Of a DNA stretch of 64,000 bases, positions 1,411-61,320 are shown piece by piece (position 1 is the first letter of the stretch; each line of letters begins with the position of its first letter). The stretch covers positions 1 to 64,000 of the forward strand of contig WTXI01000123.1 in NCBI GenBank assembly GCA_022376515.1, given 5' to 3'. Made by a program: the position numbers and the translations under genes. The DNA comes from Lactifluus volemus (lineage: Eukaryota > Basidiomycota > Agaricomycetes > Russulales > Russulaceae). A model generated the notes under the pieces. The model worked only from the letters and a program-made list of their open reading frames with translations, made no database searches and had not been told where the DNA came from.

Positions 1411-2163
1411 TCATTCCACATCATCTAGCTCGAGGATGATCATCACCTTGACCTTACCAGAGCGGCGGCTATTAGGATTGTGAAGGTATTGATTAACAAG
1501 CTGTCCGAGCTCTTCCCCCATGGACATTATGGAGGGTACTGTGCCGGGAATCCCTTGAGAAGGGACTGTTACGTTGGGTCGTTGGGGCGCATGGCCATCA
1601 TTTAACCACTCCGAGTCCTGTGGCGACAGGCCCAGTCAGCTGGACTGTGAATGCACCATAGAGAGGGAGAGAAAGCACATACATGGGCTGGCGGAGCAGA
1701 GTACTGTGGCCAATGCGGACTAGGGTAGGTGGGGAGATTGAAGATGGGTTGAGCAGTCCCAGAAGGTGGGTTATAGTAAGCAACATTCTGCCAGTGGTCG
1801 CCTTGATATTCATACTGTGGCTGTTCCCCAGACCCCTTGGGAGAAGCTGCCATCAACAAATGAAGGCAGATAAACAGGCGATGGCTTACTGAAACCTGGG
1901 ACGAAGAGTCATAATACCTCGTATCGCTAGTGGACTGGGATGAATACCCAAAGCTGGGGTGGTTCATTGAGGCGTAGGGACCAATTAAGGTTGCACTTGG
2001 TACATTTTCATTCGGTGAGAGTTCATGACGAGAACCGCTGACTTGAGATGGGCCCTAGAGATATACAGCGGTGAGTGGCTGAGACAAGTCGCTGCGGAGA
2101 GCTAACCTCGATCCGCACAGGATTATATTGACAAGGTGCGTTACTGATATATTCACGTTGCAT
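1411..2163 (-). CDS. GKVKV-tail family protein, four exons, 193 aa (type description)
   Basis: I do not recognise this family; this entry describes the type. Exons 2163-2107, 2054-1890, 1835-1683 and 1617-1411 are joined in phase 0 through GT-AG introns of 52, 54 and 65 bases. Exon 1 is a short MQRE start. Exon 2 carries ATLIGPY and MNHPSFGY and ends SSQVS. Exon 3 carries GEQPQYEYQG and PPSGTAQ and ends APPAH. Exon 4 carries a likely helix (MGEELGQLVNQYL, residues about 158-170), a basic turn NSRRSGK and a hydrophobic strand VKVMIILELDD close to the C-terminus. Residues 1-125 are rich in P, S, Y, Q and G and look disordered. No signal peptide or membrane segment is visible. Intron 2 has two AG acceptors 11 bases apart; only the distal one keeps the conserved frame. 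Intron 3 holds a CTGAC branch-like motif. Function unknown; exon structure is well supported by the other copies. Confidence 0.82.
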
Positions 2164-2270
2164 CTGGTGGGCACGATGATTTATGGAGACAAAGAGTTCT
2201 TCGGGGAGAAAAGATTGCAGTAACTTGGAGGTGGGTCATCACAAGAGCAAGAAGATCTCATTTTATAATG
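2153..2270 (-). promoter_or_regulatory. TATA box and overlapping upstream ORF of the 193-aa family gene
   Basis: A TATAAAA box lies at 2267-2261. A 28-codon upstream ORF runs 2239-2153, starts MTHLQVTAIF and ends PPDAT. Its TGA stop overlaps the main start (ATGCAACGTGA), so ribosomes translating it would terminate 8 bases inside the main frame. Related uORFs start MTHL before several other family genes, which suggests translational control. Confidence 0.5.
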
Positions 2271-2689
2271 CTGAGGTCGGAACACAAGACAAGGGCTCTG
2301 TCACCTAAGGTACTGTAGTAGGTGCGGACACGTATCAACTCACACACCAAGACTGCTGTGGAACGGAGAACTTTGTGCGCCGATCGCCTTTTTAATTTGT
2401 ACGTGGTGGCTGGGGTCAGTCTTGTTGGCAGTTGGCCGAGATGGCCGCCCTGGGCACGAAAAAACCGGTCTCAACAACTGACCCCGGCCACCACTTACAT
2501 AAACAGAACCGGCGCACAGATACCACGATGCCCGGGCACGCATCTATAGCACCTTGACAGAGTGCTTGCATCCCGACATGCCCTTTGAAGTAGTTGGAGT
2601 TGATTATTGCTACTTTGTTGAGAAGCCTGAGAATATCATTGGGTTAGGAGGCATGATATCTCCGAGTCGTGTGACGTGAGGCTTTACAC

Positions 2690-3175
2690 GAGCACTAGTA
2701 CTGGCGGTTCATTCTTTTGCAGCTCAAGTCACACTACCCCCGATTTCGCCTTGGTCGCCACCACGAAGAGACCGACATAGTGCTGCCAGTTTCAGATCTG
2801 TTACAAGCAAGGTCACAAGCGCCAAAATGGCCAGTTCCCTTTCTTGGATCAACTTGTTTCCTTTCATGCTTGCTCCGCTCAATATTCGATCATGATTTGC
2901 AGGCACAGGCACGAAGACCCATGTTCCAATCTGCCGTTTCTTCGATTGATCAATTTCGGACGATTCGTACTCTTGATTCACCACCGGTCGATCACTGCTT
3001 TTCTTCTTAAACCCGGTTTGCACGCATTTTTGATTGGTGGCGTCATATTCTGTACTGGTACGACTATACGTTCTGCCATAGATCATTCGTTTCTGCAGCT
3101 GTTTGTACGATTTGACAGATGAGGTGGGGTGTATCCCCTGTACCAGTAAGACTTTACAATGTGCTACTGAAAGAC
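2690..3175 (+). repeat. Three-copy flank repeat, copy 1
   Basis: Matches about 26775-27260 and 50885-51400: all three carry GTCGCCACCA, GAAGAGACCGACATAG and TTCCAATCTG in the same order and spacing. It lies upstream of a family promoter in the first two cases. Short frames are open on both strands but are not conserved between copies, so I call it non-coding duplicated flank. Confidence 0.6.
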
Positions 3176-3179
3176 ATGA

Positions 3180-5600
3180 GTGTGGAGGAACGTGAAGGGG
3201 GTAGTCTCATCCGGGTGGCGAAGGAAGGGATGGGAGAACTCAATGCGTAGCCGAACTGGTTGCGGTATGAAGGAAACAAGTTTGAAACTTCCAGAAACGA
3301 CATGCGAGGGTGATTGTATGACTCGGAGCACAGTGCTGCGTATAGTTAATAAGAATGTCACAATGCTCTGCTCCCATGGGGGAGATAGAGCTAACGCGGG
3401 TACGCACGGGCACGTGAGCCACTAAACGAGGATGCACATTCGCTGGAGATCCTATTCAAGCGTGACGCCAATACCGATCAAGGCCACCCAAATTCCCTTC
3501 TGCCAGACGACGGTATACACCGGAACTCCCCGAGTTGCTGTTCATGAGCCGGAAGGAATACTTGCTGTGCAGCTTGGCCAAAAGAACGAATATTTTGTAA
3601 ACTCGTTCCCATGAAAGATTTTAAGAGTTGGGGAAGCGATGTTGGCCGTTGTAATTGGCCAGAAGTTATCTGCTAAAGAGATGAGTGTTGAGCAGATAGG
3701 TGAGGTGGGCCCGACAACGCACCCCGTGGGGTAGAGTTCAACGCCAGGAGGATGTCAAGTTCGCGTCCTTCGCCGTATTGACCGGTTCCGAGACAAACGG
3801 CGATGTCCCCAAATTCATCTGCATCGCTTGCTTGATCCGCAAGTACGCTTCCGCATGAGTTTTCATTTGTTGAACCATTGGCAGCGGATGCAAGGTCCCG
3901 GAGGTATACCCGAACCTCTGGAGGAGCCGAGATAAAGGATGGGCAAGCGTTGCCTTTAGTAGTGTCAAAAAAACGAATGCCGATGAGAGAGGACGGCCTC
4001 AGGGCCAAGGATGGTAACATCACGTGAGTTTCATGTGTGTTCACTCTTCACTCCCCCTTCCACCACTACAAAGTCCAAAGATGCTTCTACTACTCACACG
4101 ATACCACCCTTACCTTACCTCCCAAACACAAAGTCGAACTGAGGCCCGGCCCTGTGAAACCGCCAATAGCGCCCTCTAATCCACACTCCAAAATTGAGGG
4201 AATTGCCGACCACCAACACCTCCCCACAATTTCAGTCTACGTCATCCACCACCAAATCATCAAAGAGATGAAAGCAGACATGAAATATGCATACACTCAC
4301 GGAATCCTTGCATCCCCACCACCGGATGCTGGCAAACTTGCGAGGACTTTGGCACCAAGCCGAGGAACTTTTTGTGCGTTGGACCGTTCGGCGTGGCATC
4401 GGCGCTAACATCTTCTCATTAGAAACTCTACTTCAGAGGTCTCACGTTAATTATCACGCATCGAAAATAGGCCAAGGAGATCCAAGCACGGGTAAGGGCA
4501 GGCGGAGAACATCTGGAATCTCGGTTTATTTGAACCAACAAGAATGACCTTGCAAGGTACTCCCTCTCCCCTTTTCGTTTTCCATTCACCTTTTCATCCG
4601 CCACAACCCAAATGCTTGTATCTTTCATTGCGATTCTTCTCGTTCTCAAGGAAGCTATTCGCTCGTTGTGCTGTACGCAGCTGGCATGCTCCCGTCGAGA
4701 CTCCTCAGCGCGAATGATCTGATGCGAAGCGACGTGAGAGGCAGCGTGCCTTCGCCGAGGCTACACGCGTTTCCCTTTTAGACTTGTACAAGGCGGGCCC
4801 AGCAGCCCTGGTCTATCAAAACGTGGCAGGACGGACTAGAATGGTTGCACGTAGGTTCTGAACTACCGTATCAAATACACTTTGAGCACGACAAAAGCCT
4901 TCTAGCTTTGAGCTGTACGTCTACAAGTGATTAACTATTGCTTTTGTCTCTTCTATTGTGGGTGCGGACGCTCTCTGGCCAGAATATCGGGAGGACATGA
5001 TTTTTTCTGTGAGTTCCAAGGAGATCTACTAAGCGAGATTTCCATTCCCGGGTTTCAATCCCGCGCGGATAACTCGTGGGTAATTTTGCCCATATTCGAC
5101 ATTGAAATTCTCTATCTCAACACCGCCCGCTCGTCTCCAAACGACATTATCCCGCACTCGATAGATATCTCAAACAACTATCAGATGACTCGGACGCATC
5201 CGCTCTCCATATATTCGCGCTCGCTCGTGTGCGAGACTGCCGGCGCATAGGCCGTATTGAGCTCGCCATTGATCGCACCGAGCATGCCACCAATGTGGTT
5301 ATTGTTGCGGCCAAAGGGCGCATAGCACCAATGACAGTTGGGTCAGATTGGAGAGTGCCCCCAAAGTCGCAGTCAGTTGCACCACTGCATATACCGGAGG
5401 CTCTGGGAGTACTTTGCCCTGTCATGAGCCACGTACAACCCCGCATCTGGCTAAGTACTCCCCACTCTTCTGTTGTCCTCTCTCCTCAGCTTTTTTTTAA
5501 TGCCAGCCACACCGTCTCTTTACTGCTATCTTGGTTGTGGCGATCTGCTTTTTTTCTTGCGTATTGCCTTGTGCCCACCAACCACCCTCTCCGTCATTAC
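3180..5600 (+). repeat. Flank block D, copy 1
   Basis: About 2.4 kb that recurs collinearly at about 13385-15960. Shared landmarks: GCCGAACTGGTTGCG near 3250, CTGCTCCCATGGGGGAGATA near 3370, GGAAACTTTTTGTGCGTTGGAC-like text near 4365, and the ACTCGATAGATATCTCAAAC stretch near 5157. It precedes repeat R1 in both modules. Copy 1 lacks a part of the coding-like segment still seen at 15380-15660. No intact gene; broken coding remnants only. Confidence 0.65.
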
Positions 5601-7602: not shown

Positions 7603-8375
7603 ATGCAACGTGAATCACACACCCTCAGTACCCCTCCTTGTCGATATACTCCTGCACAGACCACCGACTCGGAGGTCAGCTCTCCATATTTCAGCCTCTT
7701 GTCTTAGCCACTCATCATCGAATATCTTTAGACCCCTCCTCATCTCCGCAGTTTTGTTCATGGACTCTCATCATATGAGCATGTACCGGATGCAACTGCC
7801 ATTGGTCCCTACACCTCAGTGAACCACCCAAGCTTTGGATATCCATCCCAATACACTACCAATATAGGGTATGATGGCCCTTCGTCCCAGGTTTCAGTAA
7901 GCCATCACCCATTTATCTGACTTAATTCTTTCCTTGCTGACGGCAGCTCTTCCAAAGGGGTTTTGGGAACAACCACAGTATGCAAATCAAGGCAACCACT
8001 GGCAGAGTGTCGCTCACAACAGCCCACCTTCTGGGACTGCTCAACACATCTTCGATCTCCCCATCTGCCCTAGCCCGCTTCGGCAAGAGTATTATGTTCC
8101 GCCAGCCCATGTACGTGCTTGCTCTCCCTCTCCATGCGCATTCACGGTCCATCTGACTGGGTCTGTAGTCGCAGGATACAGTAAATATGAATACCGGTAA
8201 TCATGGACCTCCACTCTCCAACGTAACACCCCACTCTCAAGAAACTCCCGGTCCAGTATTCCCTGGAATATCTGTGGGGGAAGAGCTTATCGAACTTGTT
8301 AATCGATACCTTCAGAATCCTGACATCCGCCGCTCTGGTAAGGTTAAGGTGATGATCGTGTTCGATGTAGAATAA
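7603..8375 (+). CDS. GKVKV-tail family protein, four exons, 196 aa
   Basis: Exons 7603-7674, 7732-7896, 7958-8110 and 8175-8375, all phase 0, give 196 residues. The in-frame TAG directly before the ATG fixes the start. Exon 2 has ATAIGPY and NHPSFGYPSQYTTN; exon 3 has GFWEQPQYANQGNHW and ends VPPAH; exon 4 has SVGEELIELVNRYL, then IRRSGKVKVMIV, and ends FDVE: the LELDD of most copies is shortened. Tandem acceptors GCAG and AAAG, 11 bases apart, precede exon 3. It is the plus-strand member of a convergent pair with the gene at 11063-10367, with a UAP1 fragment between them. A GGATAAAGAATG stretch at 8479-8490 may be the 3' processing signal. Confidence 0.82.
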
Positions 8376-10366: not shown

Positions 10367-11063
10367 CTACTTCACGTCATCTAGCTCGAGCACGATCGTC
10401 ACCTTGACCTTACCAGAGCGGCGGCCATTAGGATTGTGAAGGTATTGGTTAACCAGCTGTCCGAGCTCTTCGCCCACGGACATTTCTGAGGGTGCTGGGC
10501 CGGGAATCCCTTGAGAGTGGAGTGTTACGTTGGGTGGTTGAGATCCATGGCCAATAGTAGTGCCGTCAACAAGCATGTCCGAGTCCTCGGGCTGCGGCTG
10601 CAGTCCCCCCTCAGATGGACTATGAATGCACTATGGAGAGGGTGTGAAACCACATACACGGACTGGCTGAGCATAGTACTCTGGCCAAAGCGGACTAGGG
10701 CAGAGGTCGAGGATGGGTTGAGCAGTCCCAGGAGGTGGGCCACAGTAAGGGACATTCTGCCATTGGTCGCCTTGATACGCACACTGTGGCTGTTCCCCAG
10801 ACCCCTTGGGAGAGGCTGCCATCAGCAAGGAAAGAATGAAGGCAGATAAATGGTTGATGGCTTACTGAAACCTGGGACGAAGAGTCATAAAGCCTCAAAT
10901 TGCCAGTGGATTGGGATGGATATCCAAAGCTGGGGTGGTTCATTGAGGCGTAGGGACCAATTAAAGTTGCACCTGGTACGTTTTCATTGAGATCAGAAGA
11001 GAGGCCAAAGGGATATACTGGGCCAGGATGGGTGGGTAAAGGTCTCGGGGGTCTATTGGCCAT
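10367..11063 (-). CDS. GKVKV-tail family protein with replaced 5' exon, 189 aa
   Basis: Exons 11063-10866, 10804-10658 and 10591-10367 (phase 0) give 189 residues. Exon 4 begins PEDSDMLVDGTT, carries SVGEELGQLVNQYL and RRSGKVKVTIVLELDD, and ends DVK. The usual exon 1 and intron 1 are absent; upstream of the conserved LNENVPGATLIGPY the sequence switches to a new proline-rich 5' part starting MANRPPRPLPTHPGP. No TATA box is obvious nearby, so expression is less certain than for the sister gene at 26465, which keeps the normal four-exon form. Tandem acceptors 11 bases apart precede exon 3. Confidence 0.7.
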
Positions 11064-11721
11064 TTGGTAAGATAGGAAGGAATGGTGGGGTAGGGCCCTC
11101 ACTCAGTGAGCCAGGCCTGGGTAAGGCAATCAGCTGAGCTCGCGGCAGCCACGTGGCTAATCGCGCACAAGTAATCTAGTCGGCGAAGGTATCCAAATAC
11201 AGCTAGTTTACTTTATTTTTTGACTTCTCACTCCGAGCCCGCAAACGGCGACTTGACCTTCCCAGGTCCATGCCGATCATTCCTATGCGCTAAACAAGCG
11301 ATCGGGTTTCAGAGACCGGGCCCTGGCCACGCCAGGTTCTTTTCATGGACTACGTACTGTAACCCTTTCCTGCCTTCGAGGACCACGTCCAACGTGCCGC
11401 TCTGTTAAGCGCATGCCGAAGATCTATCTCATCGTGTCGTAAGCAAAAGATAGCCCTAAGCGTTTGGGAAGTAGATCGACTTTTATGACAACAGCCAATA
11501 GCCCGGCAGCGGTTCTCTCCTCATCCCAAACGTTCCATCCCCTATCCCACTTCTTCACCTCGCCCAATTGCACAGCTACCCTGCATGTTTTCGATCCCAG
11601 GACTCGACCTTTCATCCTACACTCGCCAACCACGTGTAAACCCGTCACCACGGGCGTGTATTGACTTGCCTTGCTCTCTCATTTGGTATAACTTAAACTT
11701 CACGTGCTCCTGAGAGTGCTG
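11064..11721. other. Gap between divergent family genes; no gene seen
   Basis: Single-copy within this window as far as I can see. It contains only short frames without splice or promoter context and separates the 5' ends of the genes at 11063 (-) and 11796 (+). Confidence 0.4.
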
Positions 11722-11795: not shown

Positions 11796-12451
11796 ATGTC
11801 CCACCCCAACTACAATAGTCCCGGAGGGTCGCTGAGAACTAGCCCCCCTGGTGGTGATTCTCAGTGGGGAAGAGCCCACTGCCATCCAGGCTACCCAACA
11901 CGTTCCCAATACACTAGTAATGTGGGATATGGGGAACCTTTGTCTCAGGTTGCAGTGCGCTGTGTTCACTTATCTGCCTTGATGCTTCCCTCGCTGATTA
12001 CAGCTTCTTCCAAGTCTTTTGGGGAACAACCACCGTATGCATATCAAGGCAACCAGAGTGATGCTCACCACGGCGCTGGGGCTCCTCAAAACATCCATGA
12101 TCCCTCCATCGCACCTGGTTTACTTTGGCCAGAGTATTATGCTCCACCGGACCATGTATGTGCTTGTTCTCTCTTCATTCACAGTCCATCTGACTGGGTC
12201 CGTGGCCACAGGAGATACCAAATAATGCCATTATCGGTCGTGCGCCTCAACCGCCTAACGTACTGGTCCCCTTTCGAGGACTTCCTGGCCCAGTGCCTCG
12301 TAGAATATCCGCTGAGGAAGAGCTCAGACAACTTGCAAATCGATACCTTCATAACCCTGACTCGCGCGTCGACAAGGTTCGCATGAGGCATAGCCGTCGC
12401 TCTGGTAAAGTCAAGGTGATGATCTTGCTTGAGCTAGAGGAGGTGGAATAA
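11796..12451 (+). CDS. GKVKV-tail family protein, arginine-rich-tail subtype, 179 aa
   Basis: Exons 11796-11954, 12015-12155 and 12212-12451 give 179 residues. There is no separate exon 1: the protein starts MSHPNYNSPGGSLRT, then HCHPGYPTRSQYTSNVGYGEP. The donor of the first intron is GTGCGC where homologues have GTGAGT or GTAAGA; that intron is 60 bases and open in frame, so retention would give 199 residues. Exon 3 has SFGEQPPYAYQGNQ; exon 4 has SAEEELRQLANRYL and an extended basic stretch DSRVDKVRMRHSRRSGK before VKVMILLELEE. The extra residues between helix and strand define a subtype shared with the copies at 30985, 33996, 45602, 49957, 57307 and 61320. Confidence 0.75.
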
Positions 12452-18451: not shown

Positions 18452-19216
18452 ATGCAACGTGAATCACACCCTCTCAATACCCCTCCTTGTCGATATACTC
18501 CTGCACAGATCACCGACTTGGAGGTCAGTTCTCCATATTGCAGCCTCTTGCCTTAGCCACTCATCATCGAATATCTCTAGACCCCTCCTCATCTTCGCGG
18601 TTTTGTTGATGGACTCTCATCATACGAGCATGTACCGGATGCAACTGCCATCTGTCCCTACACCTCAGTGAACCACCCAAGCTTTGGGTATTCATCCCAA
18701 TACACTACCAATATAGGGTATGGTGGCCCTTCGTCCCAAGTTTCAGTAAGCCATCGCCCATTTATCGGACTTCATTCTTTCCTTGCTGACGGCAGCTCCA
18801 CCCAAGGGTTTCTGGGAACAGCCACAGTATGGAAATCAAGGCAACCACTGGCAGAGTGTCGCTCACAACGGCCCACCTTCTGGGACTGCTCAACACATCT
18901 TCGATCTTCCCATCTGCCCTAGCCCGCTTCGGCCAGAGTATTATGTTCTGCCAGCCCATGTATGCGCTTGCTCTCCCTCTCCGTAGCGCATTCACGGCCC
19001 ATCTGACTGGGTTTGTAGTTGCAGGATACACAAAATAGGAATACCGGAGATCATGGACCTCCACCCTCCAACGTAACACCCCACTCTCAAGAAAGTTCCG
19101 GTCCAGAAATATCTGTGGGGGAAGAGCTTATACAACTTGTTAATCGATACCTTCAGAATCCTGACATCCGCCGCTCTGGTAAGGTTAAGGTGATGATCGT
19201 GTTCGATGTAGAATAA
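18452..19216 (+). CDS. GKVKV-tail family protein, four exons, 193 aa
   Basis: Exons 18452-18523, 18581-18745, 18807-18959 and 19025-19216. Closest relative is the gene at 7603: exon 3 GFWEQPQYGNQGNHW, exon 4 SVGEELIQLVNRYL, then IRRSGKVKVMIVFDVE. An in-frame 12-base loss in exon 4 removes the VFPG-type residues before SVGEEL. Introns are 57, 61 and 65 bases, and tandem acceptors 11 bases apart precede exon 3. A GGATAAAGAATG stretch follows near 19325. Confidence 0.82.
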
Positions 19217-21311: not shown

Positions 21312-21449
21312 CTACTCCACGCCATCTAGCTCGAGCACGATCGTCACCTTGACCTTACTAGAGCGGCGGCTATTAGGATTGTAAAGGTATTGATTATCCT
21401 GTCCGAACCCTTCCCCCACGGACATTTCGGAGGGTGCTGGGCCGGGAAT
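21312..21449 (-). pseudogene. Truncated family exon 4 at a tandem-module junction
   Basis: Minus-strand frame reads PSEMSVGEGFGQDNQYLYN then SRRSSKVKVTIVLELDGVE and stop. Everything upstream of the exon 4 middle is missing: at 21449/21450 the sequence switches directly into repeat R1 (GACCAAAATGGAGAAACGG). The junction places module copy 3 in tandem after copy 2. Confidence 0.75.
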
Positions 21450-21815
21450 CGACCAAAATGGAGAAACGGTTCTTGACGCGCGCCAACGTCCCTCCACCCT
21501 CCTGACTTGCCATCAAACCGATCAAAAGTGTTTGCCTTCGTAAGGCCTGTCGTCGCGTTCTTGGAATTTTGTCGGCAACTGATGGCTAACCATGATCAAC
21601 CGTCTTTCGGGGTGGGCAAAATGCGAAGCGCAGAACCCACTGACCGGCCATGGGAATCTGACAACCCCTGGATGGGAGGGAACTGCATTACTAAGCACAC
21701 TCAGTCGGGTCTCTCTCGGCCATGAATCGCCAATGGAGGGGATAGTGGTGGTGATGGGATGGGAAGGGACAGTGCAGAAAACAAACTATGGAGGGCAGCA
21801 GAGTCCATGCATAAA
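21450..21815 (+). repeat. Repeat R1, copy 3
   Basis: Begins exactly at the truncated exon 4 junction and follows copies 1 and 2 to GGCAGCAGAGTCCATGCATA. Confidence 0.72.
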
Positions 21816-23090: not shown

Positions 23091-23841
23091 ATGCAACGTG
23101 ATTCACACACTCTCAGTACCCCTCCTTGTCCATATACTCCTGTACAGAGCACCGACGCGGAGGTCAGCCCTTCACATTCCAGCCTCTTGTCTTAGCCACT
23201 CATCATCATATATCTCTAGGCCCCTCCTCATGTCTGCTGTTTTGACCATGGACGGTTGTCATACGATTGTGTACCAGATGCAACTGCCATTGGTCCCTAC
23301 ACCACAACGAACCACCCAGGCTTTGAATTGCCATCCCAATACACTACCAATGTAGGGTATGATGGCCCTTCATTCCAGGTTTCAGTAAGCCATGGCACAC
23401 CTATCTGCCTTCATTCATTCATTGCTGATGGTAGCTCTTTTTGGAACAGCCACAGTATGCAAACCAAGGCAACCACTGGCCGAGTGTTGCTCACAACGGT
23501 CCATCTTCTGGGACTGCTCAACACATCTTTGATCTCCCCGTCTGTCCTAGTCCGCTTCGGCCAGAGTATTATGCCCATGTACGTGCTTGTTCTCCCTCTC
23601 CGTGGCACCTTCATGGTCCATCTGACTGGGTCTATAGTCGCAGGATACACTAAATAGTAATACCGGCGGTCATGCACCTCCATCCAACATAACACTCCCC
23701 TCTCAAGGAATCCCAGGCGCAGTACCCCCTGGAATGTCTGTGGGGGAAGAGCTTATCCAGCTTGTTAATCGATACCTTCAGAATCCTGATAGCCGCCGTT
23801 CTGGTAAGGTCAAGGTGATGATCGTGCTCGATATGGAATAA
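23091..23841 (+). CDS. GKVKV-tail family protein, four exons, 192 aa
   Basis: Exons 23091-23162, 23220-23384, 23435-23578 and 23644-23841. Exon 2 differs from its sisters in HVCCFDHGRLSYDCV and NHPGFELPSQYTTN. The proximal AG acceptor is the only one before exon 3 here, because the distal one has been deleted, yet the frame is kept (LFLEQPQYANQGNHW). Two codons are lost in frame near the end of exon 3 (EYYAH for EYYAPPAH). Exon 4 has GMSVGEELIQLVNRYL and SRRSGKVKVMIVLDME. It forms a convergent pair with the gene at 26465. Confidence 0.82.
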
Positions 23842-30187: not shown

Positions 30188-30985
30188 TTATTCCATCTCG
30201 TCCAGCTCAAGCAAGATCATCACCTTGACCTTACCAGAGCGACGGCTGTGCCTCACGCGAACCTTGTTGACACGCGAGTCACGCTCATAAAAGTATCGGT
30301 GAGCAAGCTGTCTGAGCTCTTCCTCAATGGACATGCCGGGGGGCACTGGGCCAGGAAGTCCTTGAAAGGGGATCGCTACGTTAGGCAGTTGAGGCGCACG
30401 GTTGATAATGACATCGTTTGGTATCTCCTGTGGCTACGGACCCAGTCAGATGGACTGTGAATGAAGAGAGAACAAGCATGTACCCGAACTGGTGGAGCAT
30501 AGTACTCTGGCAGAAGTAGACCAGGGGCGATGGAGCGATCATAGATGTTTTGAGGAGCTCCAGCAACGTAGTGAGCATCGGCGCTCTGGCTACCTTGATA
30601 TGCATACAGTGGTTGTTCCCCAAAAGACTTGGAAGAAGATGTAGTCAGCAAGGGAAGCATCAAGAGGATAAGTGAACACATCTTACTGAAACCTGAGACG
30701 AGGGTTCATACCCCACATTACTAGTGTGTTGGGAAGGTGTTGGATAACCTGGACGGTTCATGGTGGCGGAGGGACCAGCAAAAGCTACACCTGGTACACG
30801 CTCATCTGGCAAGAGTTCGGGGTCGGGACCGCGGACTGGAAGCAGGGCCTAAAGTAAAGATATACAACGATAATTAGCTGACTCGGAGACAAGAGGCTGC
30901 AGGGTTGAGAGCTGACCTCGGCGGTATGCAAAGAATTATATTGATAAGGAGGGGTACTACTGAGAACATGTGATCCACGTTGCAT
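30188..30985 (-). CDS. GKVKV-tail family protein, arginine-rich-tail subtype, 204 aa
   Basis: Exons 30985-30917, 30848-30687, 30627-30484 and 30427-30188, phase 0, introns 68, 59 and 56 bases. Exon 1 MQRGSHVLSSTPPYQYNSLH; exon 2 carries LPDERVPGVAFAGPSAT and NRPGYPTPSQHTSNVGYEP; exon 3 SFGEQPLYAYQGSQSADAHY ending APPVR; exon 4 SIEEELRQLAHRYFYERDS, then RVRHSRRSGKVKVMILLELD and EME. It is the closest full-length relative of the family part of the F-box fusion at 49957 and of the 11796 gene. Only one acceptor is present before exon 3. A TATA box (TATAAAAT) lies at 31085-31078. Confidence 0.82.
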
Positions 30986-33218: not shown

Positions 33219-33996
33219 TCATTCCATGTCATCCAGCTCAAGCAAGATCATCACCTTGACCTTACCAGAGCGGCGGCTGCGCCTTACGCGAACCCTGTCG
33301 ACACGCGAGTCAGGGTCATGGACGTATCGGTTAGCGAGCTGCCTGAGCTCTTCCCCAGCAGACATTCCGTGGAGCACGGGGCCAGGAACTCCTTGAGAGG
33401 GGCCTGCCACGTTGGGAGGTTGGCCAATAGTGCCATCGTTCAGCATCTGCGGCTACGGATCCAGTTCAGATGGACTGTAACTGCACGATGCAGAGGGAGA
33501 GCAAAGTACATACACGGGCCAGCGCCGGAGCATTGTACTCTGGCCGAAGTGGACCAGGAATGATGGGGAGATCGAAGGTGTGTTGAGCTGTCCCAGGAGG
33601 CGGGAAGTGGGGAGCACCTTGATATGCATACTGTGGTCGTTCCTCCAAACCCTTGGAGAAGCCGTTGTCGGCAACGGAAATATGAAGACAAATAAATGAG
33701 CGATGACTTACTGCAACGGGGGATGAAGGGTCATCATATCCCACATTGGTGGTATATTGGGAAGGAGTTCCATAGTTGGGGTGGCTCCCTACGGTGTAAG
33801 GTCCAGTAAAAGTTGCATTTAGAACACGTTCATCTGATGAGAGTTGGTGATCGGGACTGCTGACAGGAGGCGGTGGCTAGAGATACTCGATGATGAGTAG
33901 CCGAGACCGGAGGCTGCGAGGTGCAGAGCGGACCTTGGCAGTGTGCACAGGATCATATTGATAAAGGGTGCTGAGAGTGTGCAATTGACGTTGCAT
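33219..33996 (-). CDS. GKVKV-tail family protein, arginine-rich-tail subtype, 197 aa
   Basis: Exons 33996-33934, 33876-33712, 33651-33514 and 33446-33219. Exon 1 MQRQLHTLSTLYQYDPVHTA; its donor is GTCCGC where most copies have GTCAGC. Exon 2 has PPPPVSSPDHQLSSDERVLN and SHPNYGTPSQYTTN, a full-length exon 2 unlike the other copies with the same exon 4. Exon 3 GLEERPQYAYQGAPHFPPPG lacks the usual NQSVAHH. Exon 4 starts MLNDGTIGQPPNV and has SAGEELRQLANRYVHDPDS, RVRRSRRSGKVKVMILLELD and DME. The TATA-like box is weak (TTAAAAGAT near 34095). Confidence 0.78.
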
Positions 33997-35547: not shown

Positions 35548-36312
35548 TTATTCCATATCATCTAGCTCAAGCACGATCACCACCTTGACCTTACCAGAGC
35601 GTCGGCTATCGTGATTTTGAAGGTATCGCATGACAAGCTGTCTGAGCTCTTCTCCCACAGTCATTCCGGGGGGAACAGGGCCAGAGACTCCTTGAGAGGA
35701 GGGTGTGACGTTGGGTGGTTGAGGTGCATGGCCAATAATGCCATCATTTAGCATCTCTTGTAGCTACAGAGCCAGTTAGATGGACTGTGAATGTACTATA
35801 AAGAGGGCACATAAGCACATACATTGGCTGGCGGAGCATACTGCTCTGGCGAAAGTGGACCAGGGCCGATGAGGAGATTAGAGATATGTTGAGCAGTCCC
35901 AGAAGGTGGACCATGGTGAGCGACACTCTGGTTTCCTGCATATGCATGCTGCGGCTGTTCCCCAAACCCCTTGGAAGCTTCCCTCAGCAAAGAAAGGGTG
36001 AAGGAAGATAATCGAGCAATAACTTACTGCAACCTGGAACGAGGGGTAATTATACCCCATATTGCTAGTAGGGTTTCCAAAACTGGGGTTCATTGGGGCG
36101 TAAGGATCAGCGAAAGTTGCTCCTGGTACACGCCCATCTGACAGGCGTTCGTAATCCGAGTCGGGACCACTGACATGAGGCGTGGCCTGGAGATATACGA
36201 CAATGAGTGGCGTGGGGACCAGGTAACGTGGAGAGCTGACCTCAGTGGACCGCACGGGATGATATTGATAATTTGAAGGAGGTGCACTGAGAGTGTGTGA
36301 TTCAGACTGCAT
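35548..36312 (-). CDS. GKVKV-tail family protein, four exons, 194 aa
   Basis: Exons 36312-36241, 36186-36028, 35969-35823 and 35754-35548. Exon 1 MQSESHTLSAPPSNYQYHPV; exon 2 ATPHVSGPDSDYERLSDGRV and NPTSNMGYNYPSFQVA; exon 3 GFGEQPQHAYAGNQSVAHHG; exon 4 starts MLNDGIIGHAPQPPNV, with TVGEELRQLVMRYLQNHDS and RRSGKVKVVIVLELDDME. The intron 3 acceptor has become CACAAGAG; using the second AG keeps phase 0. The frame is also open upstream to an ATG at 36366 (MQSSLCEEHSTFVNRAHQ), an 18-residue extension also possible at 43767 and 54830. The uORF start ATG is lost here (ATTG). Confidence 0.8.
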
Positions 36313-36402
36313 CTGGTGTGCACGATTTACGAAGGTAGAGTGTTCTTCGCAGAGAGACGATTGCATCGAGGTGGGTCAATGATGAGAGTAGGGAAGACTT
36401 CA

Positions 36403-40600: not shown

Positions 40601-41399
40601 ATGCAACGTGAATCACACGCTCTCAGTACCCCTCCTTGTCAATATGTTCCTGCACAGACCACCGATTCGGGGGTCAGCCCTCCACATTGCAGCCTCTTGT
40701 CTTAGCCACTCACCATTGTATATCTCTAGGCCCTTCATGGTTTTGATCATGGACTCTCATCAAACGAGCGTGTACCATATACAACTGACCTTGGTCCCTA
40801 TACCACAATGAACCACCCACGCCTTGGATTTTCGTCCCAATACACTACCAATATAGGGTATGGTTGCCCTTCGTCCCAGGTTTCAGTAAGCCATTTCCCA
40901 TTTATATGCCTTCATTCTCCGGGTCCTTGCTGATGACAGCTTCTACCAAGGGGTTTGGGGAACAGCCACAGTATGCAAATCAAGGAAACCATTGGCAGAG
41001 TATTTCTCACAATGACCCCCTTTCTGGGGCTTCTCAAAACATCGTCAATCCCCCCGTCTGTCCTGGCCCGCTTCGGCCAGTGTATTTTGCTCCGCCAGCC
41101 CATGTATGTGCCTGCTCTCCCTCTCTGTGGCGCGGCGCATTCCTAAGTCCGTCTGACTGGGTCTATAGTCGCACGATACACTGAATGGTGGTACCGGCGG
41201 TCATGCGCCTCCACCCTCCAACGTAACACTCCCTCCTCGAGGAACACTTAGCGCAGTACCCCCTGGAATATCCGTGGGGGAAGAGCTTATACAGCTGGTT
41301 AGTCGTTACCTTCAGAATCCTGACAGCCGCTGCTCTGGTAGGGTCAAGGTAATGGTCGTGCTCGAGTTAAATGACGTGGAATGGTTGTGGGCCTGGTGA
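40601..41399 (+). CDS. GKVKV-tail family protein with rescued splice site and extended C-terminus, 203 aa
   Basis: Exons 40601-40672, 40730-40885, 40951-41103 and 41169-41399. The usual intron 3 acceptor GCAG is mutated to GCAC; an upstream TATAG is in frame and adds only two codons (SH) before DTLNGGTGGH. The TAA stop after LELNDVE has become TGG, extending the protein by WLWAW. Other changes: RCSGRVKV in place of RRSGKVKV, a shortened exon 2 (ALHGFDHGLSSNERVPYTTD) and PVYFAPPAH in exon 3. With a degraded TATA box this may be a decaying but still open copy. Confidence 0.72.
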
Positions 41400-42989: not shown

Positions 42990-43767
42990 CTATTCCACGT
43001 CATCTAGCTCGAGCACGATCATCACTTTGATCTTACCAGAGCGCCGGCTATCAGGATTTTGAAGGTATCGTCTGGCAAGCTGTCTGAGCTCTTCTCCCAC
43101 AGTCATTCCAGGGGGCACTGGGCCAGGGACTCCTTGAGAAGGGACTGTTATGTTAGATGGTTGAGATGCATGGCCAATATTGCCATCATTTAGCATCTCT
43201 TGTGGCTACAGTACAGACCAGGTCAGAGGGATTGTGAATGCATTTTTGGGTGGGTAAGCACATACGTGGGTGGGCGGAGCATAGTACTCTGGCCAAAGTC
43301 GACCAGGACCGATGGGGCAATCGGAGATGTATTGAGCGGTCCCAGAAGGTGGGCGGTGGTGAGTGACACTCTGGTTGCCTTGATATGTATACTGTGGCCC
43401 CCCAGCAAACCCCTTGGAAGAAGCTGCCGTCAGCAAGGAAAGTATGAAGACAGGTGAATGAGCGATAACTTACTGCAACCTGGAACGAAGAAGGGTAATC
43501 ATGACCATACCCCATATTGCTACTGTATTGCGAAGAGTTTCCAATACCGGGATTCATTGCAGCGTAAGGATCAGTGAACGTTGCACCTGGTACAGGCTCA
43601 TGTGACAGGAGTTTATGATTAGGACCACTGACATGAGGCGCGGCCTGGAGATATATACGACGATGAGTAGTTGACTGGCTGAAACGCGGAGAGCTGACCT
43701 CAGTGGACCGCACAGGATGATATTGAGGAGGGGTACTGAGACTCGAAGTGTGTGATTCAGATTGCAT
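42990..43767 (-). CDS. GKVKV-tail family protein, four exons, 197 aa
   Basis: Exons 43767-43699, 43644-43474, 43412-43266 and 43196-42990. Exon 1 MQSESHTSSLSTPPQYHPVR; exon 2 AAPHVSGPNHKLLSHEPVPG and NPGIGNSSQYSSNMGYGHDY; exon 3 GFAGGPQYTYQGNQSVTHHR; exon 4 MLNDGNIGHASQPSNITVPS with TVGEELRQLARRYLQNPDS and RRSGKIKVMIVLELDDVE. The acceptor of intron 3 is CACAAGAG, as at 35754. Tandem acceptors 11 bases apart precede exon 3. The gene at 54830 is its duplicate and shares exon 3 almost residue for residue. Confidence 0.82.
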
Positions 43768-43867
43768 CTGGTGCACACGATTTACGAAGGCAGAGTAGTG
43801 TTCTTCGCAGAGAGACGATTGCAACGAAGTGGGTCATAATAAGAATAGTAAAAAGAGCTCATTTATC
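43757..43867 (-). promoter_or_regulatory. Promoter and overlapping uORF of the 43767 gene
   Basis: A 26-codon uORF (43837-43757), MTHFVAIVSLRRTLLCLRKS then CAPDAI, overlaps the main start codon in another frame. A weak GATAAAT lies at the TATA position near 43867-43861. Confidence 0.5.
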
Positions 43868-47774: not shown

Positions 47775-49957
47775 TTACTCCACCTCGTCCAGCTCAAGCA
47801 AGATCATCACCTTGACCTTACCAGAGCAGCGGCTGCACCTTACCCGAACCCTGTCGACATGCGAGTCAGGGTCACGAAGGTATCGACTAGCAAGTTGTTT
47901 GAGCTCTTTCTCAGCAGATATTCCAGGAGGTACTGGGCCAGGAAGTCCTTGAAAGAGGTTCGCTACGTTAGGTGGTTGACGTGCATGCCAGATAGAGACA
48001 CCATTTGGTATCTCGTGTGGCTACGGACCCAGTCAGATGGACTCTGAACGGAGAGAGAATAAGCTCGTACATGGTCCGGTGGAGTATAGTACTCTGGTTG
48101 ACGTAAACCAGGGACGATGGAGGAATCATGGGTGTTTTGAGTAGCTCCAGCGCCTTGGTGAACAATAATCTGGTTGCCTTGATATGCATACGGTAGTTGA
48201 GACTTGGAAGAAGCTGTAATCAGCGAGGCAAGCATCGAGGGGGATAAATGAACATAACTCACTGAAACTTGAGACGAAGGTTCATCATATGCCACGTTAG
48301 TGGTGTAATGGGAAGGTGTTGGGTAACCTGGATGGCTCATGGTGGAGTATGGACCAGCAAACGCTGCAGCTAGTACACGCCGATGTCGCTCTCGTTCTCG
48401 TTTTCGCTGCCGCTCCTGCTTCTGCTCCACCTTCCGCTCTTGCTCTCGCAACCTCTCCTGCTCCCGCTCCTGCAGGCGGTGTAGATCCCACTCCTGCTTA
48501 AACTTGAATTCTGTGCCGCAGCACCGCCAGCTGCCAGAGTATTGAACCTCAAGTAGATCGGGGAACAGTTCCTTATCCTCTAGATGAAGTGACTGAGAGC
48601 GTCTCCCCTCTCCGAAGAGTGCATTTGACACGCAAAGTTTCTTCACACTGCCAAGTGGCATGAAAAGTTCACGCCACTGTGTTTCGTCGACTTGGTTGTG
48701 CAACTCTGAAGACCGATCGGGTTTCTCGTGCCGGAGAGTGAGCTCCTCCACGGCAGAGAGCACGGGCGAAAGTTTTCCAAGGATCTGTGCTGCGGTCGCT
48801 ACTTGCCAATGTCTGCAAAGGATCTGCAAACGCAAGGCACGTTCCCGCCAACTCCGATGATGGTCTGAAATTAAATCAACAGAACCCTCATCGAAAGTAA
48901 GTTCGATAGAGCTAAAACTGAGACCCTCTGATGCCTGCATGAACTGCAAGAGGCGTGGAACAGTGAAAGTGAGTTGATTAAAGAACTGGACATCAAGGGA
49001 GTTGAGGGAAGGGGCGCTGATCCGAGAGAGAAGACCTTCGAGGTAAGCATTGACACCTCGATATGAAAATGTGTGAAGGCGAGGAAGAGTCACGTTGGTC
49101 GTGAATGGGGTATTCGATAGTTGCCTCGTAACATCGCGGTTTGGGACAGGGGCACGAAAATGAATGACGAGAGTCTCGAGCTGGGGCGTGTGTGAAAGCC
49201 GTGTGAGTATATAACTTGGGGGGAAATAGACGGATGCCGGGATATCTATAAGCTCGAGGTTAACCAAGCTCGTAGTATTTGGGGGTAAAGGAGATGGAAT
49301 TGGAAGGCAACTCGTCCACATGTGGCGTAGATTAGGTGCTCGAAACGTTTTGAGAGAGGCGAGGTGTGTAGAATCGTGGGACGGAGACTCGATACAGATG
49401 CGTTCCAGAATCGGGAATTCCTCATTCATTGGCGTGGTGAACTTGCCTAATTTGGAGGTGGGTATCCCAAGGGCAACACGGTGCAAACGGTCCGAGTGAC
49501 CGAGTGCAAGCAGTACACCCTCTTCCTCCTCTGCTGTCATCTCACGATTGCTGTCGTCGTAAAAGACGGTGAGCGGCAGGGGAGGTGAATGTACTAGCAT
49601 GTCTGCTACAGGCACACCATATGTGCAGAGGAGATGGAGATCCAATCGTAAAGGTGACGCAAGAATGAGCTGCCGCCAACGTTGGCAAACCCAAGCGAGC
49701 TTGTACCACCAACGTTGGCGGCACCGCTTCCATCGGACATTCTCATCTTCTTCTTCTTCCTTGATTTCAAGTAGATAGACATAGAATATGTGGAGAAGGA
49801 CGTCATCGTTAAGGATATGGATAAGTGATTTGTAGCTAAGGAACCCTATTGATTCACGAGTTGGTGCGTGGAACAGGGACGACGAACGTTGGGACTCACA
49901 AGTTGGTAAATGTAGGCGTCGCCACTTATTACTGAGCCATCGAGCGGTGGTAGACAT
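47775..49957 (-). CDS. F-box protein fused to a GKVKV-tail family C-terminus, 687 aa
   Basis: Exons 49957-48263, 48202-48071 and 48011-47775. Residues about 44-105 form an F-box (SYKSLIHILNDDVLLHIFYV, then WWYKLAWVCQRWRQLILASP), followed by LDLHLLCTYGVPVADML and a long leucine-rich-like region to about 490, as in F-box adaptors of SCF ubiquitin ligases. Residues about 495-526 are a charged R/E/Q linker (EREQERLREQERKVEQKQER). From 527 on (RVLAAAFAGPYSTMSHPGYP) the protein is the second half of a family exon 2, then exon 3 SQLPYAYQGN and exon 4 SAEKELKQLASRYLRDPDSH, CSRCSGKVKVMILLELDEVE. Intron 2 (60 bases) is open in frame, so both spliced and retained forms are readable. The usual intron 3 acceptor CAG is CAC, and GAG three bases on rescues the frame. 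No TATA box seen. Confidence 0.8.
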
Positions 49958-54049: not shown

Positions 54050-54830
54050 TTATTCCACGTCATCCAGCTCGAGCACGATCATCACCTTGACCTTACCAGA
54101 GCGTCGGCTATCAGGATTTTGAAGGTATCGTCTGGCGAGCTGTCTGAGCTCTTCTCCCACAGTCATTCCTGGGGGCACTGGGCCAGGGATTCCTTGAGAG
54201 GGGACTGTGACGCTGGATGGCTGTGGTGCATGGCCAATAGTGCCATCGTTTAGCATCTCCTGCGGCTACAGTACAGACCAGGTCAGAGGGACTGTGAATG
54301 CATTATTGGGTAGGTAAGCACATACGTGGGTGGGCGGAGCATAGTACTCTGGCCAAAGTCGACCAGGACCGATGGGGCAATCGGAGATGTATTGAGCGGT
54401 CCCAGAAGGTGGGCGGTGGTGAGTGACACTCTGGTTGCCTTGATATGCATACTGTGGCCCCCCAGCAAATCCCTCGGAAGAAGCTGCAGTCAGCAAGGGA
54501 AGTATGAACACAGATAAATGAGGGATAGCTTACTGCAACCTGGAAAGAAGAAGGGTAATCATGATCATACCCCATATTGCTAGTGTATTGGGAAGAGTTC
54601 CCAAAACCGGGATTCGTTGCAGCGTAAGGACCAGTGAACGTTGCACCTGGTACAGGCTCATGTGACAGGAGTTTATGATCGGGACCAGTGGCATGAGGCG
54701 CGGCCTGGAGATATATACGACGATGAGTGGTTGACTGGCTGCAACGTGGAGAGCTGACCTCAGTGGACCGCACAGGATGATATTGGTAAGGAGGGTAACT
54801 GAGACTCGAAGTGTGTGACTCAGATTGCAT
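54050..54830 (-). CDS. GKVKV-tail family protein, four exons, 199 aa
   Basis: Exons 54830-54759, 54704-54534, 54472-54326 and 54259-54050. Duplicate of the 43767 gene: exon 2 AAPHATGPDHKLLSHEPVPG with NPGFGNSSQYTSNMGYDHDY; exon 3 GFAGGPQYAYQGNQSVTHHR ending APPTH. Unlike its twin it keeps the ancestral CGCAG acceptor before exon 4, which therefore starts EMLNDGTIGHAPQ; then TVGEELRQLARRYLQNPDS and RRSGKVKVMIVLELDDVE. Tandem acceptors (GCAG, CGAG) 11 bases apart precede exon 3. Confidence 0.83.
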
Positions 54831-54930
54831 CTGGTGTACACGATTTACGAAGGCAGAGTGTTCTTCGCAGAGAGAGGATTGCATCGAGGTGGGTCATGAT
54901 AAGAGTAGTAGGAAGAGCTCATTTAAAAAG
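54820..54930 (-). promoter_or_regulatory. Promoter and overlapping uORF of the 54830 gene
   Basis: A 25-codon uORF (54897-54820), MTHLDAILSLRRTLCLRKSC then TPDAI, overlaps the main ATG in another frame, as at 43757. A TTTTTAAAT stretch stands at the TATA position near 54925. Confidence 0.5.
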
Positions 54931-56602: not shown

Positions 56603-57307
56603 TCATTCCATATCATCCAGCTCAAGCACGATCATCACCTTGACCTTACCAGAGCGACGGCTGCGCCTTACGCGAACCCTGTCGACACGCGAGTCAGGGT
56701 CATGGACGTATCGATTAGCGAGCTGCCTCAGCTCTTCCCCAGCGGGCATTCTGGGGAGTACTGGGTCAGGAATTCTTTGGTAAGGGACTGCTACGGTGGG
56801 GGGTTGGCCAATAGTGCCATCATTTAGCATCTGCGGCTACGGACCCAGTCAGATGGACTCTGACTGAACCATGCAGAGGGAGAGCAAAATACATACATGG
56901 GCTAGCGGAGCATAGTACTCTGGCCGGAGTGGACCAGGGACGATGGGGAGATTGAAGGTGTGTTGAGGAGTCCCAGGAGGCGGGAAGTGATGAGCGACAC
57001 CTTGGTTGCCTTGATATGCATACTGTGGCTGTTCTCCCGACACCTGGAGAAGCCGTTGTCTGCAATGGAAACATGAAGACAGATAAATAAGCGATTTCTT
57101 ACCGCGGCAGGGGATGAAGGGAAAATTGCACTTGGTACACGCGGATCTGATGAGCGTTGGTGATCGGGAATGCTGACAGGAGGCTGTGCCTAGAGATATT
57201 CAACGATGAGTAGCTGAGAGCGGTGCACTGGCAGAGCAGCTGACCTTAGCAGTCTGCAAAGGGTCAAATTGATGAGGAGCACCAAGAGTGTGGAATTCAG
57301 GCTGCAT
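56603..57307 (-). CDS. GKVKV-tail family protein, short exon 2, arginine-rich-tail subtype, 174 aa
   Basis: Exons 57307-57245, 57189-57103, 57043-56897 and 56830-56603. Twin of the 45602 gene with the same 29-codon exon 2 (AQPPVSIPDHQRSSDPRVPS). Exon 1 begins MQPEFHTLGAPHQFDPLQTA; exon 3 VSGEQPQYAYQGNQGVAHHF; exon 4 PAGEELRQLANRYVHDPDSR then VRRSRRSGKVKVMIVLELDD and ME. The intron 2 donor is GCG|GTAAGA. TATAAAAT is present at 57404-57397, whereas its twin has lost it. Confidence 0.8.
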
Positions 57308-59167: not shown

Positions 59168-59809
59168 TTTCAATCGAGACCAACCAGTGACTGAGACCAC
59201 CATGTGGGGAGATCCGCAAGCCACGATCGACTTTGGCAAATCAGTGGAGCCCGTCCAGGTCAAGCCCAAGGCGTGCATAAACACATTGCACGTGCCTATT
59301 CCATTCGCGCGCCTATTTCATTCACCCCGGGCCGCCTGGTCAGTTCACTTGCCCGAATTCAGTAGGCCGAGTTTACGCCTTGGCCTTCTTCAACTCCATG
59401 TGCGGCCACTCGAACCTCTCTCTTTAAACTCTAGTGTAGTCACTATAGATGACGAGGTGATCGACGTGTCGTGGAGTTTCCCCCCTGATGCTCACGGTGT
59501 GGCCGAGTTGTGCACCGCTGCCATGCGTTGCGCCTGTGGATGTGCGAGTGTGCCTCTCTTAGCTGGGCAGAAAAGTGTCTATAGAGTAAGCTTCATCGTT
59601 TGTCATTTGTGTACTTTCCCTATATTCTTATGTAGTTCTTACGGCATTGTGGGAAACTTTCTATCTCGTTGGTCAGAAGTAGCTGTGATTCGTTGATCTG
59701 CACAGGTCCACGACGTCAGCCGGAAGTCCCCGATCTACACACACTCTGTATTACACAACAATCACGCTTCAAGTTGGTAACACAATTCAAAGTCGGTTCA
59801 CGAGGACAA
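59168..59809 (+). repeat. UAP1 downstream flank, copy B
   Basis: Partner of 47088-47774 and likewise leads into a minus-strand family 3' end. No gene seen. Confidence 0.65.
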
Positions 59810-60111
59810 TTATTCCACCCCGTCCAGCTCAAGCAAAATCATCACCTTGACCTTACCAGACTCTCCTCTGTCTGCGTCGTTGGGGCGACAGTCATGTTTT
59901 GGAGTGCAAAGCGATGTGAGATGAAGCGGCGGCTGCGCCTTGCACGAACCCTGTCGACATGCGAGTCAGGGTCAAGAAGGTATCGACTAGCAAGTTGTCT
60001 GAGCTCTTCCTCGGCAGATATTCCAGGAGGTACTGGGCCAGGAAGAGACGGACAAAGGGGAATGATCGGACCGGCAAAAGGAGGGTGGTATTCCCACGGG
60101 GGTCCAGTCAT
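59810..60111 (-). pseudogene. Family exon 4 with a 64-base insertion and replaced upstream part
   Basis: SAEEELRQLASRYLLDPDSH and VRARRSRR are followed by 64 foreign bases (59861-59924) inserted before SGKVKVMILLELD, which shifts the frame. Upstream of GLPGPVPPGIS the family sequence is replaced after LPGP by unrelated text with an ATG (MTGPPWEYHPPFAGPII). Exons 1-3 are missing. Partner of the family part of the F-box fusion in the other block copy. Confidence 0.65.
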
Positions 60112-60621
60112 TTAATCGAGATCAGTTTGCTCTTTTGGGCAAGAGAAATCTTTCCATACCTCCTCCGTCAATTTGTCAACGTTGAAATTCAAATGTGAAC
60201 TCTAAATAAGGGCCTAGTACTCTATGTGGAAGTACGACATATGTGACCTCTTGACCTCTTAACCCTAAGTCAATCAATTGTGTGACAATTGTGTCCTTGA
60301 AACGCATTGCTTTACACCCAACAGCAGCTGAGGGTCGGTACAGTTGTAGGAGGACGCTGGCACGAGCACAGCGAATCATCTGCTGCTGCGCATAGCGTAT
60401 GAGCATTATTGATCGTGGGGTTCGTTGAGTGTGCAATCAGTACGGTGCGGATCATTTGCTTAGCGGGTGAACGCAGTGAAAGGTTAATCCGCACATATAC
60501 ATTCTTTATTCCATCATCAGCCAGGAAGCCAGTCAACATAGACGCTAGTGTACACGGGCTAATACTCTGCTTGGTGCAGTGACCAACAAACACAACACGA
60601 CTTGGTTCACTAGATTTCCAA
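60112..60621. other. Gap before a family 3' end; no gene seen
   Basis: CATTCTTTATTCCATCATCA near 60500 matches 33085-33110 and represents the AATAAAG-type 3' signal on the minus strand. Confidence 0.4.
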
Positions 60622-61320
60622 TCATTCCATATCATCCAGCTCAAGCAAGATCATTACCTTGACCTTACCAGAGCGGCGGCTGCGCCTTACGCGGACCTTG
60701 TCGATACGCGAGTCACGATCATGAAGGTATCGACTAGCGAGCTGCCTGAGCTCTTCCCCAGCGGACATTCCGGGGAGTACTTGGCCAGGAATTCCTTGAG
60801 AAGGGCCTGCTACGTTGGGGGGTTGGCCAATAGTGTCATCATTTAGAATCTGCGGCTACGGATCCAGTCAGATGGACTGTGACTGCACCATGCAGAGGGA
60901 GAGAAAAATACATACGTAGGCCAGCGGAGCATAGTACTCAGGCCGGACTGGACCAGGGATGATGGGGGGATAGAAGGTGTGTTGAGCAGTACCAGGAGGT
61001 GGGAAGCGGTGAGCGACACTCTGGTTGCCTTGATATGCATACTGTTGTCCCAACCCCTGGAGGAGCCGTTGTCCGCAACGGAAACATGAAGGTCGATAAA
61101 TTAGTGATGACGTACTGCAACAGGGGATGACGTGAAAGTTGCGCTTGGTACACGCGCATCTGATGAGTATTGGTGATCAGGAAAGCTGACAGGACTATTT
61201 GCCTAGAGATATTCAGCGATGAGTAGCTGAGAGCGGTGAACGGGCAAAGCAGCTGACCTGAGCAGTCTGCAAAGGGTCAAATTGATGAGGGGTACCGAGA
61301 GTGTGGAATTCACGCTGCAT
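60622..61320 (-). CDS. GKVKV-tail family protein, short exon 2, arginine-rich-tail subtype, 172 aa
   Basis: Exons 61320-61258, 61202-61116, 61056-60916 and 60849-60622. Exon 1 MQREFHTLGTPHQFDPLQTA ends in Q not K. Exon 2 is the 29-codon form (ANSPVSFPDHQYSSDARVPS). Exon 3 is two codons shorter (GLGQQYAYQGNQSVAHRF) and ends PLAY. Exon 4 starts ILNDDTIGQPPNV, with MLND altered to ILND, then SAGEELRQLASRYLHDRDSR, VRRSRRSGKVKVMILLELDD and ME. The intron 2 donor is GTACGT. TATAAAAT lies at 61411-61404. Confidence 0.8.

Follow-up and report, generated by a model that had tools for sequence, protein, structure and literature searches.

Tandem copies of an unnamed four-exon gene family with a shared C-terminal module in Lactifluus volemus

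Why should one short stretch of a mushroom genome hold copy after copy of what looks like the same gene, and do these copies encode a protein that still matters? The question is raised by the window analysed here, bases 1-64000 of contig C28 (107,593 bases) in the 62.4-megabase, 628-contig assembly of Lactifluus volemus; other contigs bearing the family include C90 (632,797 bases) and C56 (88,984 bases). There is very little doubt that this is a real, unnamed, tandemly duplicated family of protein-coding genes, and its reading frames are under purifying selection. The best explanation as a whole, to which we give a probability of about 0.5, joins this selected tandem family to an intracellular binding or scaffold role for its protein. 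Tandem lineage-specific gene families are a known kind in mushroom-forming fungi, marked by local duplication, presence and absence between haplotypes and the lack of a domain name. The present family is new as a family and ordinary as a kind, but differs from such families generally in having a recognisable module that can be traced over four genera.

In the window, a protein-to-DNA alignment script finds 14 complete copies with all four exons, 3 partial ones and 2 pieces of exon 4. With DNA up to 300 nucleotides (nt) from any copy masked, blastn adds 8 further fragments of 33-195 nt, a search in which 26 shuffled genes gave 0 matches. The 17 loci of a preliminary description are thus recovered as 14 complete plus 3 partial copies, and its minimum of ten fragments as the 2 exon-4 pieces plus the 8 short fragments; the matching four-exon structure that it proposed holds for the 14, whereas the 3 partial copies have exons 2-4 only. 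The outermost model coordinates in the window, 1411 and 61320, coincide with those of the preliminary description. The array extends beyond it, with copies at 65.2 and 81 kilobases (kb) of C28, and onto other contigs, giving a genome total of 26 complete copies: 15 on C28 (1 of them outside the window) and 11 elsewhere. Family matches cluster on about a dozen of the 628 contigs, the pattern expected for tandem duplication. The copies in the window are as follows.

1411..2163, minus strand: complete, four exons (19, 55, 51 and 68 codons); C90 partner at 97.5%
7603..8375, plus strand: complete, four exons; identical to deposited P0004 (BGW80DRAFT_1564805), a reference
10367..11069, minus strand: partial, exons 2-4, exon 1 not recognisable; no reciprocal partner on the other haplotype
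11886..12451, plus strand: partial, remainder of exon 2 plus exons 3-4; no reciprocal partner
18452..19216, plus strand: complete, four exons; gene model
21312..21476, minus strand: exon-4 piece; gene model
23091..23841, plus strand: complete, four exons; reciprocal best partner C90:12.1k is deposited P0003
25716..26525, minus strand: complete, four exons; deposited P0017 is shorter, with a different exon-4 start
30188..30985, minus strand: complete, four exons, long module; identical to P0006 (a reference); no C90 partner
33219..33996, minus strand: complete, four exons, long module; identical to P0005 (a reference); used for AlphaFold
33222..33452, minus strand: exon 4 of 33219..33996, the module reference; predicted helix (model 32-45), predicted strands 51-58 and 65-71
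35548..36366, minus strand: complete, four exons; reciprocal best partner C90:3.7k is deposited P0002
40601..41399, plus strand: complete, usual stop lost, 5 additional C-terminal residues; identical to P0013 (not a reference)
42990..43824, minus strand: complete; TTG is the start of the longer N-terminus, with an ATG further in; the model encloses deposited P0001
44909..45602, minus strand: complete, short exon 2; identical to P0008 (a reference)
47775..48379, minus strand: partial, exons 2-4, frame continuous with the upstream open reading frame (ORF) 47963-49957 (minus strand); deposited alone as P0016, with intron 2 retained
54050..54884, minus strand: complete, four exons, sister of 42990-43824; gene model
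56603..57307, minus strand: complete, short exon 2; gene model
59842..60084, minus strand: exon-4 piece broken by an insert; gene model
60622..61320, minus strand: complete, short exon 2; identical to P0009 (a reference)

The model builder behind these coordinates aligns protein to DNA from 8 reference proteins, allows phase-0 introns only, so that exon lengths are divisible by 3 by construction, and accepts stops and frameshifts at a penalty. No penalised stop or frameshift was used in any of the 17 multi-exon window models. In the 14 complete copies the four exons measure 19-42, 27-57, 43-51 and 65-81 codons, and the introns are 50-71 nt long, phase 0 and of the form GT...AG; the open exons and conserved phase-0 junctions described earlier are found again, the phase under a builder that offers no other. 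Of 89 introns, 49 have a CTRAY branch-point-like site, compared with 10% of random 40-mers. Six copies in the window match a deposited protein exactly, from end to end; five of these six proteins served as references, which makes the agreement circular there, while the sixth, P0013, did not, and neither did P0001, which lies entirely within model 42990-43824. The exact start codon is uncertain, one subfamily having an upstream ATG (MQSSLCEEH...) and the others starting from MQRES.

Signals outside the coding sequence can also be recognised. Within 220 nt upstream, 19 of the 26 complete copies have a TATA-like box (background 11%), located at -91 to -104 in 13 of the 19; the remaining 6, 5 of which have the longer N-terminus, carry it at -42 to -55. 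AATAAA occurs within 250 nt downstream of 16 of the 26 (background 4.7%). An exact word match is missing for the box in 7 copies and for AATAAA in 10. That introns and these signals were copied along points to duplication of whole genes rather than retro-copies. Splicing can be viewed from a second side, that of deposited environmental proteins. Among 14 hand-picked proteins from contigs shorter than 3 kb, 13 (including P0071, which aligns only to the second part of its reference) have no insertion of more than 6 residues at the splice junctions of the genomic models; P0033, from a contig of this size, retains an intron. For proteins from long contigs, P0019 and P0037 retain 20-25 intron residues, and P0048 shows no insertion, its first 52 residues being unaligned. 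Judged by sequence, the short-contig environmental proteins would fit spliced transcripts.

Selection on the frames was measured as the ratio of nonsynonymous to synonymous substitution rates (dN/dS), by a simple Nei-Gojobori count without transition bias, in sets from which partial copies and the two copies with a frameshift (on C144 and at C56:1850) were excluded. Across the 91 pairs of the 14 window copies the median is 0.58 (range 0.27-1.10, 1 pair above 1). For the 26 complete copies, over 322-323 of 325 pairs, the median is 0.60 overall, with 0.70 for the part preceding the module and 0.35 for the module itself; 2 pairs with dS below 0.02 were dropped, and the drops include haplotype pairs with a ratio of at least 1. 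Eleven independent pairs give pooled ratios of 0.47 overall, 0.50 before the module and 0.37 in the module (Fisher p 8e-12, 1.5e-8 and 8e-5). In this set 7603-8375 is paired with a copy on C601 (0.44) and not with its reciprocal best partner (1.4); with reciprocal-best pairs instead, the pooled values are 0.50, 0.53 and 0.39 (p 1e-9, 4e-7 and 5e-4). Nine pairs without the 7.6- and 18.5-kb copies give 0.50, 0.52 and 0.43 for the same three partitions, and the 8 haplotype pairs alone give 0.54 (p 4e-5). Internal stops number 0 in the 14 complete copies against about 31 expected under neutrality on a tree of 1.52 substitutions per site; selecting the 14 as complete favours this zero, yet no stop or shift occurs in any of the 17 multi-exon models. 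The earlier suggestion that the protein matters, which was to be examined by dN/dS between copies, is borne out by pooled ratios of 0.47-0.50 that are not near 1, by the pairwise median and by the absence of stops.

What do the frames encode? All 17 multi-exon window copies end in a module of about 46 residues, with the consensus SAxEDLKxLAxRYLHNPDSRVDxVRxxxSRRSGxVKVMILLExDD. The shared C-terminal module of the preliminary description is therefore present at every locus, but not at full length, as a 10-residue stretch spanning predicted strand 1 is missing in 9 of the 14 complete window copies (17 of 26 genome-wide). The module's median dN/dS is 0.38 in the 17 shortened copies and 0.34 in the 9 others. 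Since the shortened module is similarly constrained, function is probably carried by the helix and the final strand, strand 1 being dispensable. AlphaFold models the module (exon 4 of 33219-33996) as one helix and two strands, with a predicted local distance difference test score (pLDDT) of 70-84 in the whole protein and 85-90 for exon 4 alone; the part before the module scores mostly 45-59 (block means). Exons 1-3 of the 26 complete copies encode 14% P, 11% S, 8% Q, 7% G, 7% Y and 0.3% K, and this low-complexity, Pro/Ser/Gln/Gly/Tyr-rich front is predicted to be disordered. In an alignment of 112 selected homologues, broken, very short and off-frame ones having been excluded by choice, the best-kept columns (P0005 numbering) are L158, Y165, L166, V189, I191 and L193, with six at least 90% conserved. 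A hydrophobic signal stretch was not seen in the N-termini (MQRESHTLSTPP..., MPNESSFPNTP...), a reading made by eye with no predictor run. Domain libraries agree with the earlier claim that no named domain carries this signature: Pfam matched 0 of 7 members and gave only two isolated, single-member weak matches to unrelated models among 112 (E values 0.004 and 0.009), no strong match to a known family being found, and the prokaryote-centred NCBIfam matched 0 of 10.

Relatives can be found well beyond the window. The family is unnamed and uncharacterised, as the word 'undescribed' had implied, but its members are already deposited as 'hypothetical protein', both as L. volemus BGW80DRAFT models on C28, C90 and C56 and in other Russulaceae. 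One spliced protein used as a query matched 12 proteins, 10 from L. volemus and 2 environmental; a first profile search reached Lactarius, and a module-weighted profile, scored against the 7,998 candidates sharing most words, returned 231 proteins at E values of at most 10. Among the best 120 of these 231, every row with an organism name is a 'hypothetical protein' of Lactarius, Lactifluus, Multifurca or Russula, many rows being without a name. Among named organisms, and as far as these searches reach, the family appears restricted to Russulaceae. The Pro/Gln/Tyr-rich front of similar length is common to the 26 copies, one environmental protein (by alignment) and Lactarius (by eye). For instance, hypothetical proteins of Lactarius akahatsu (EDB92DRAFT_563502) and L. 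pseudohatsudake (EDB85DRAFT_648902) resemble the window family in their Pro/Tyr/Gln-rich front and C-terminal module, and profile homology gives a similar front and the same module in Multifurca ochricompacta B0F90DRAFT_1819151 and Russula aff. rugulosa BGY98DRAFT_1175083. Differences are also seen: Lactarius proteins have SPSGGRF or similar where the window family has SRRSGKVKV, and Russula P0062 and P0099 and environmental P0055 and P0056 are longer proteins in which the module occurs twice. A tree of 47 proteins, rooted at the midpoint and with several long branches unsure, unites the 26 complete copies in a single clade (100/99) and Lactarius in a second (100/100) that contains two subclades (100/99 and 99/97); the divergent 81-kb copy is not part of the expansion clade. 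This topology suggests an old Russulaceae family that expanded in the Lactifluus volemus lineage.

A second, diverged branch of the module is present in the same genome. Weaker matches on more contigs appear when the genome is searched with the 81-kb module and a Lactarius protein; requerying with one of these gives 58 matches at E values of at most 0.01, 14 on C28, C90 and C56 and 44 on C68, C245, C88, C323, C423, C43 and C76, counts that are lower bounds with haplotypes mixed. Between the two branches E ranges from 2e-6 to 7e-3 in one search and from 3e-6 upward in another, both within one genome. The second-branch ends that were read (...ENLRRLAxRYLxxPDSQVDMVRMEPGxAGRFKVVITLEMADFL or similar) share with the main family the helix motif, PDSxVD, two strand-like stretches and an acidic end followed by a stop, and they too are clustered, but in the module, the only part compared, they are just about 40-50% identical to it. 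Some second-branch frames hold the module twice (C68:156967-157302).

How did the array grow? Bases 1-32 kb of C90 match 40-1 kb of C28, inverted and rearranged, with blocks of 6.1, 3.2 and 3.0 kb at 95-97% and others lower, and C56:19-33 kb matches C28:69-82 kb at 94-97%. The matching stretches of C90 and C56 are apparently the other nuclear haplotype; an old segmental duplication could also account for them. The comparison is limited to 1-40 kb of C28, as C90 ends near the match to 40 kb and C56:1-17 kb shows no collinearity with C28; within it, reciprocal best partners on C90 exist for 8 of the 11 family loci, the exceptions being the 3 at 10.4, 11.9 and 30.2 kb. A separate copy is found at C90:163.7k and C144:19.6k, on stretches matching at 95-97%. 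Compared in this way, the copy set differs between the two apparent haplotypes. Copies arise by DNA duplication that carries the introns, often the TATA box and poly(A) signal, and sometimes a larger block; alignments between copies stop at varying positions. Direct repeat blocks at 3.2-5.6 kb and 13.4-16.0 kb, some 10.2-10.4 kb apart and 92-93% identical, are part of a regional segmental duplication.

Other sequences lie among the copies. Truncated UAP1-like (UDP-sugar pyrophosphorylase) duplicates occur at 63.3-63.8 kb (Pfam) and at about 46.2 and 58.2 kb (as DNA repeats only), with fuller copies at C28:69.8-70.9 kb and on C56. The minus-strand ORF 47963-49957 (664 codons) has an F-box-like start by eye and no F-box match in Pfam, and it continues without a frame change into exon 2 of a family copy. 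The closest relatives of this ORF are on C279 (82%) and at C90:51.1k (80%), within a large family of 82 scored matches among 1,593 candidates. Together with the copy at 47775-48379, whose family part is deposited separately as P0016, it possibly forms a gene fusion. Mating-type genes are absent from C28, C90 and C56 in searches with STE3 and Homeobox_KN (homeodomain PF00046 was not searched); STE3 matches lie on C607, C77, C626, C596, C385 and C112, and Homeobox_KN matches on C168, C1 and C95. STE3-type pheromone receptor pieces total 82 exon matches in the genome, most of them on C607 and C77.

What could such a protein do? The small conserved end, the predicted disorder of the front and the lack of both an enzyme match and a signal peptide visible by eye lead us to infer a small, non-enzymatic binding protein, which would act inside the cell by binding or as a scaffold. 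The last strand, VKVMILLELDD, is hydrophobic at first and acidic towards its end; it and the helix would dock with a partner or with one another. Specificity or assembly would be set by the disordered part, the most variable. As a specific mechanism, an intracellular adaptor or scaffold docking by its last strand is put forward only tentatively. Several observations weigh against our reading. The predicted template modelling scores (pTM) are low, 0.22 and 0.47, and structure searches, including the PDB, gave no significant fold relative, leaving no function readable from structure. Three haplotype pairs have dN/dS of 1.0 or more on very few changes (1411/C90:29.5k, 2.1; 7603/C90:18.1k, 1.4; 23091/C90:12.1k, 1.0); the pair 1411/25716 gives 1.1. 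Four deposited models differ from ours at some junction (P0016 and P0017 in the window, P0010 and P0022 outside), and deposited models are among the builder's references. The transcript origin of the short contigs is itself an inference.

The nearest rival to the adaptor or scaffold mechanism is a transcriptional or nuclear regulator, in which the Pro/Gln/Tyr-rich region would be of activation type and the C-terminal module would serve docking or dimerisation. The composition of exons 1-3 and their predicted disorder favour this, and the VMILLELDD end has what we take to be a resemblance to a SUMO-interacting motif; however, Pfam and NCBIfam searches of members found no DNA-binding domain, and composition by itself is no proof of an activation region. 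This reading is doubtful. It is unlikely, in so specific a form, that the module is a new small alpha-beta-beta domain confined to or near Russulaceae, with the last strand as a docking peptide, kept in dozens of haplotype-variable versions in several arrays and with fast-changing disordered fronts as a diversified recognition or assembly set. Slightly less likely again are small secreted effectors (like mycorrhiza-induced small secreted proteins, MiSSPs) acting against or with the host tree. The fungi that host the family are ectomycorrhizal, and a small, lineage-restricted, tandemly amplified and haplotype-variable family would suit such a role, but the N-termini read by eye, with no predictor run, have no hydrophobic signal stretch, and cysteines are few (0-5 per copy in the 15 C28 copies).

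Two further accounts are both very improbable. Many clustered copies in both orientations, some broken or fused, might be the coding part of a mobile element. Against this, transposase, integrase and reverse-transcriptase Pfam models matched 0 of 112 members (the intergenic DNA was not searched), copies retain introns and often their own TATA and poly(A) signals, and both the clustering on few contigs and the varying ends of the alignments run counter to it. Alternatively, the array may be decaying, gene-like debris duplicated with its surroundings and no longer needed. Fragments and partial copies, the truncated UAP1-like duplicates between copies and the three haplotype pairs at or above 1 would all suit decay, as would the broken frames: frameshifts in 2 copies outside the window (C144, C56:1850), a stop in 1 fragment there (C56:12000) and the lost usual stop of 40601-41399. 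This account is strongly disfavoured by the lack of internal stops in the 14 copies, chosen as complete, by pooled dN/dS of 0.47-0.54 under every pair choice and by conservation in other genera.

Among the ectomycorrhizal fungi of forests, Russulaceae belong to the dominant groups, and many Russulaceae genes are unnamed. The gene family described here has a signature that can be traced over four genera; selection acts on the family, which also differs from one haplotype to the other. The module alignment, locus list and allele pairs give a handle on the role of a lineage-restricted domain and on whether copy number differs between strains. If the new-domain reading were true, the arrays would be a diversified recognition or assembly set peculiar to this ectomycorrhizal family.

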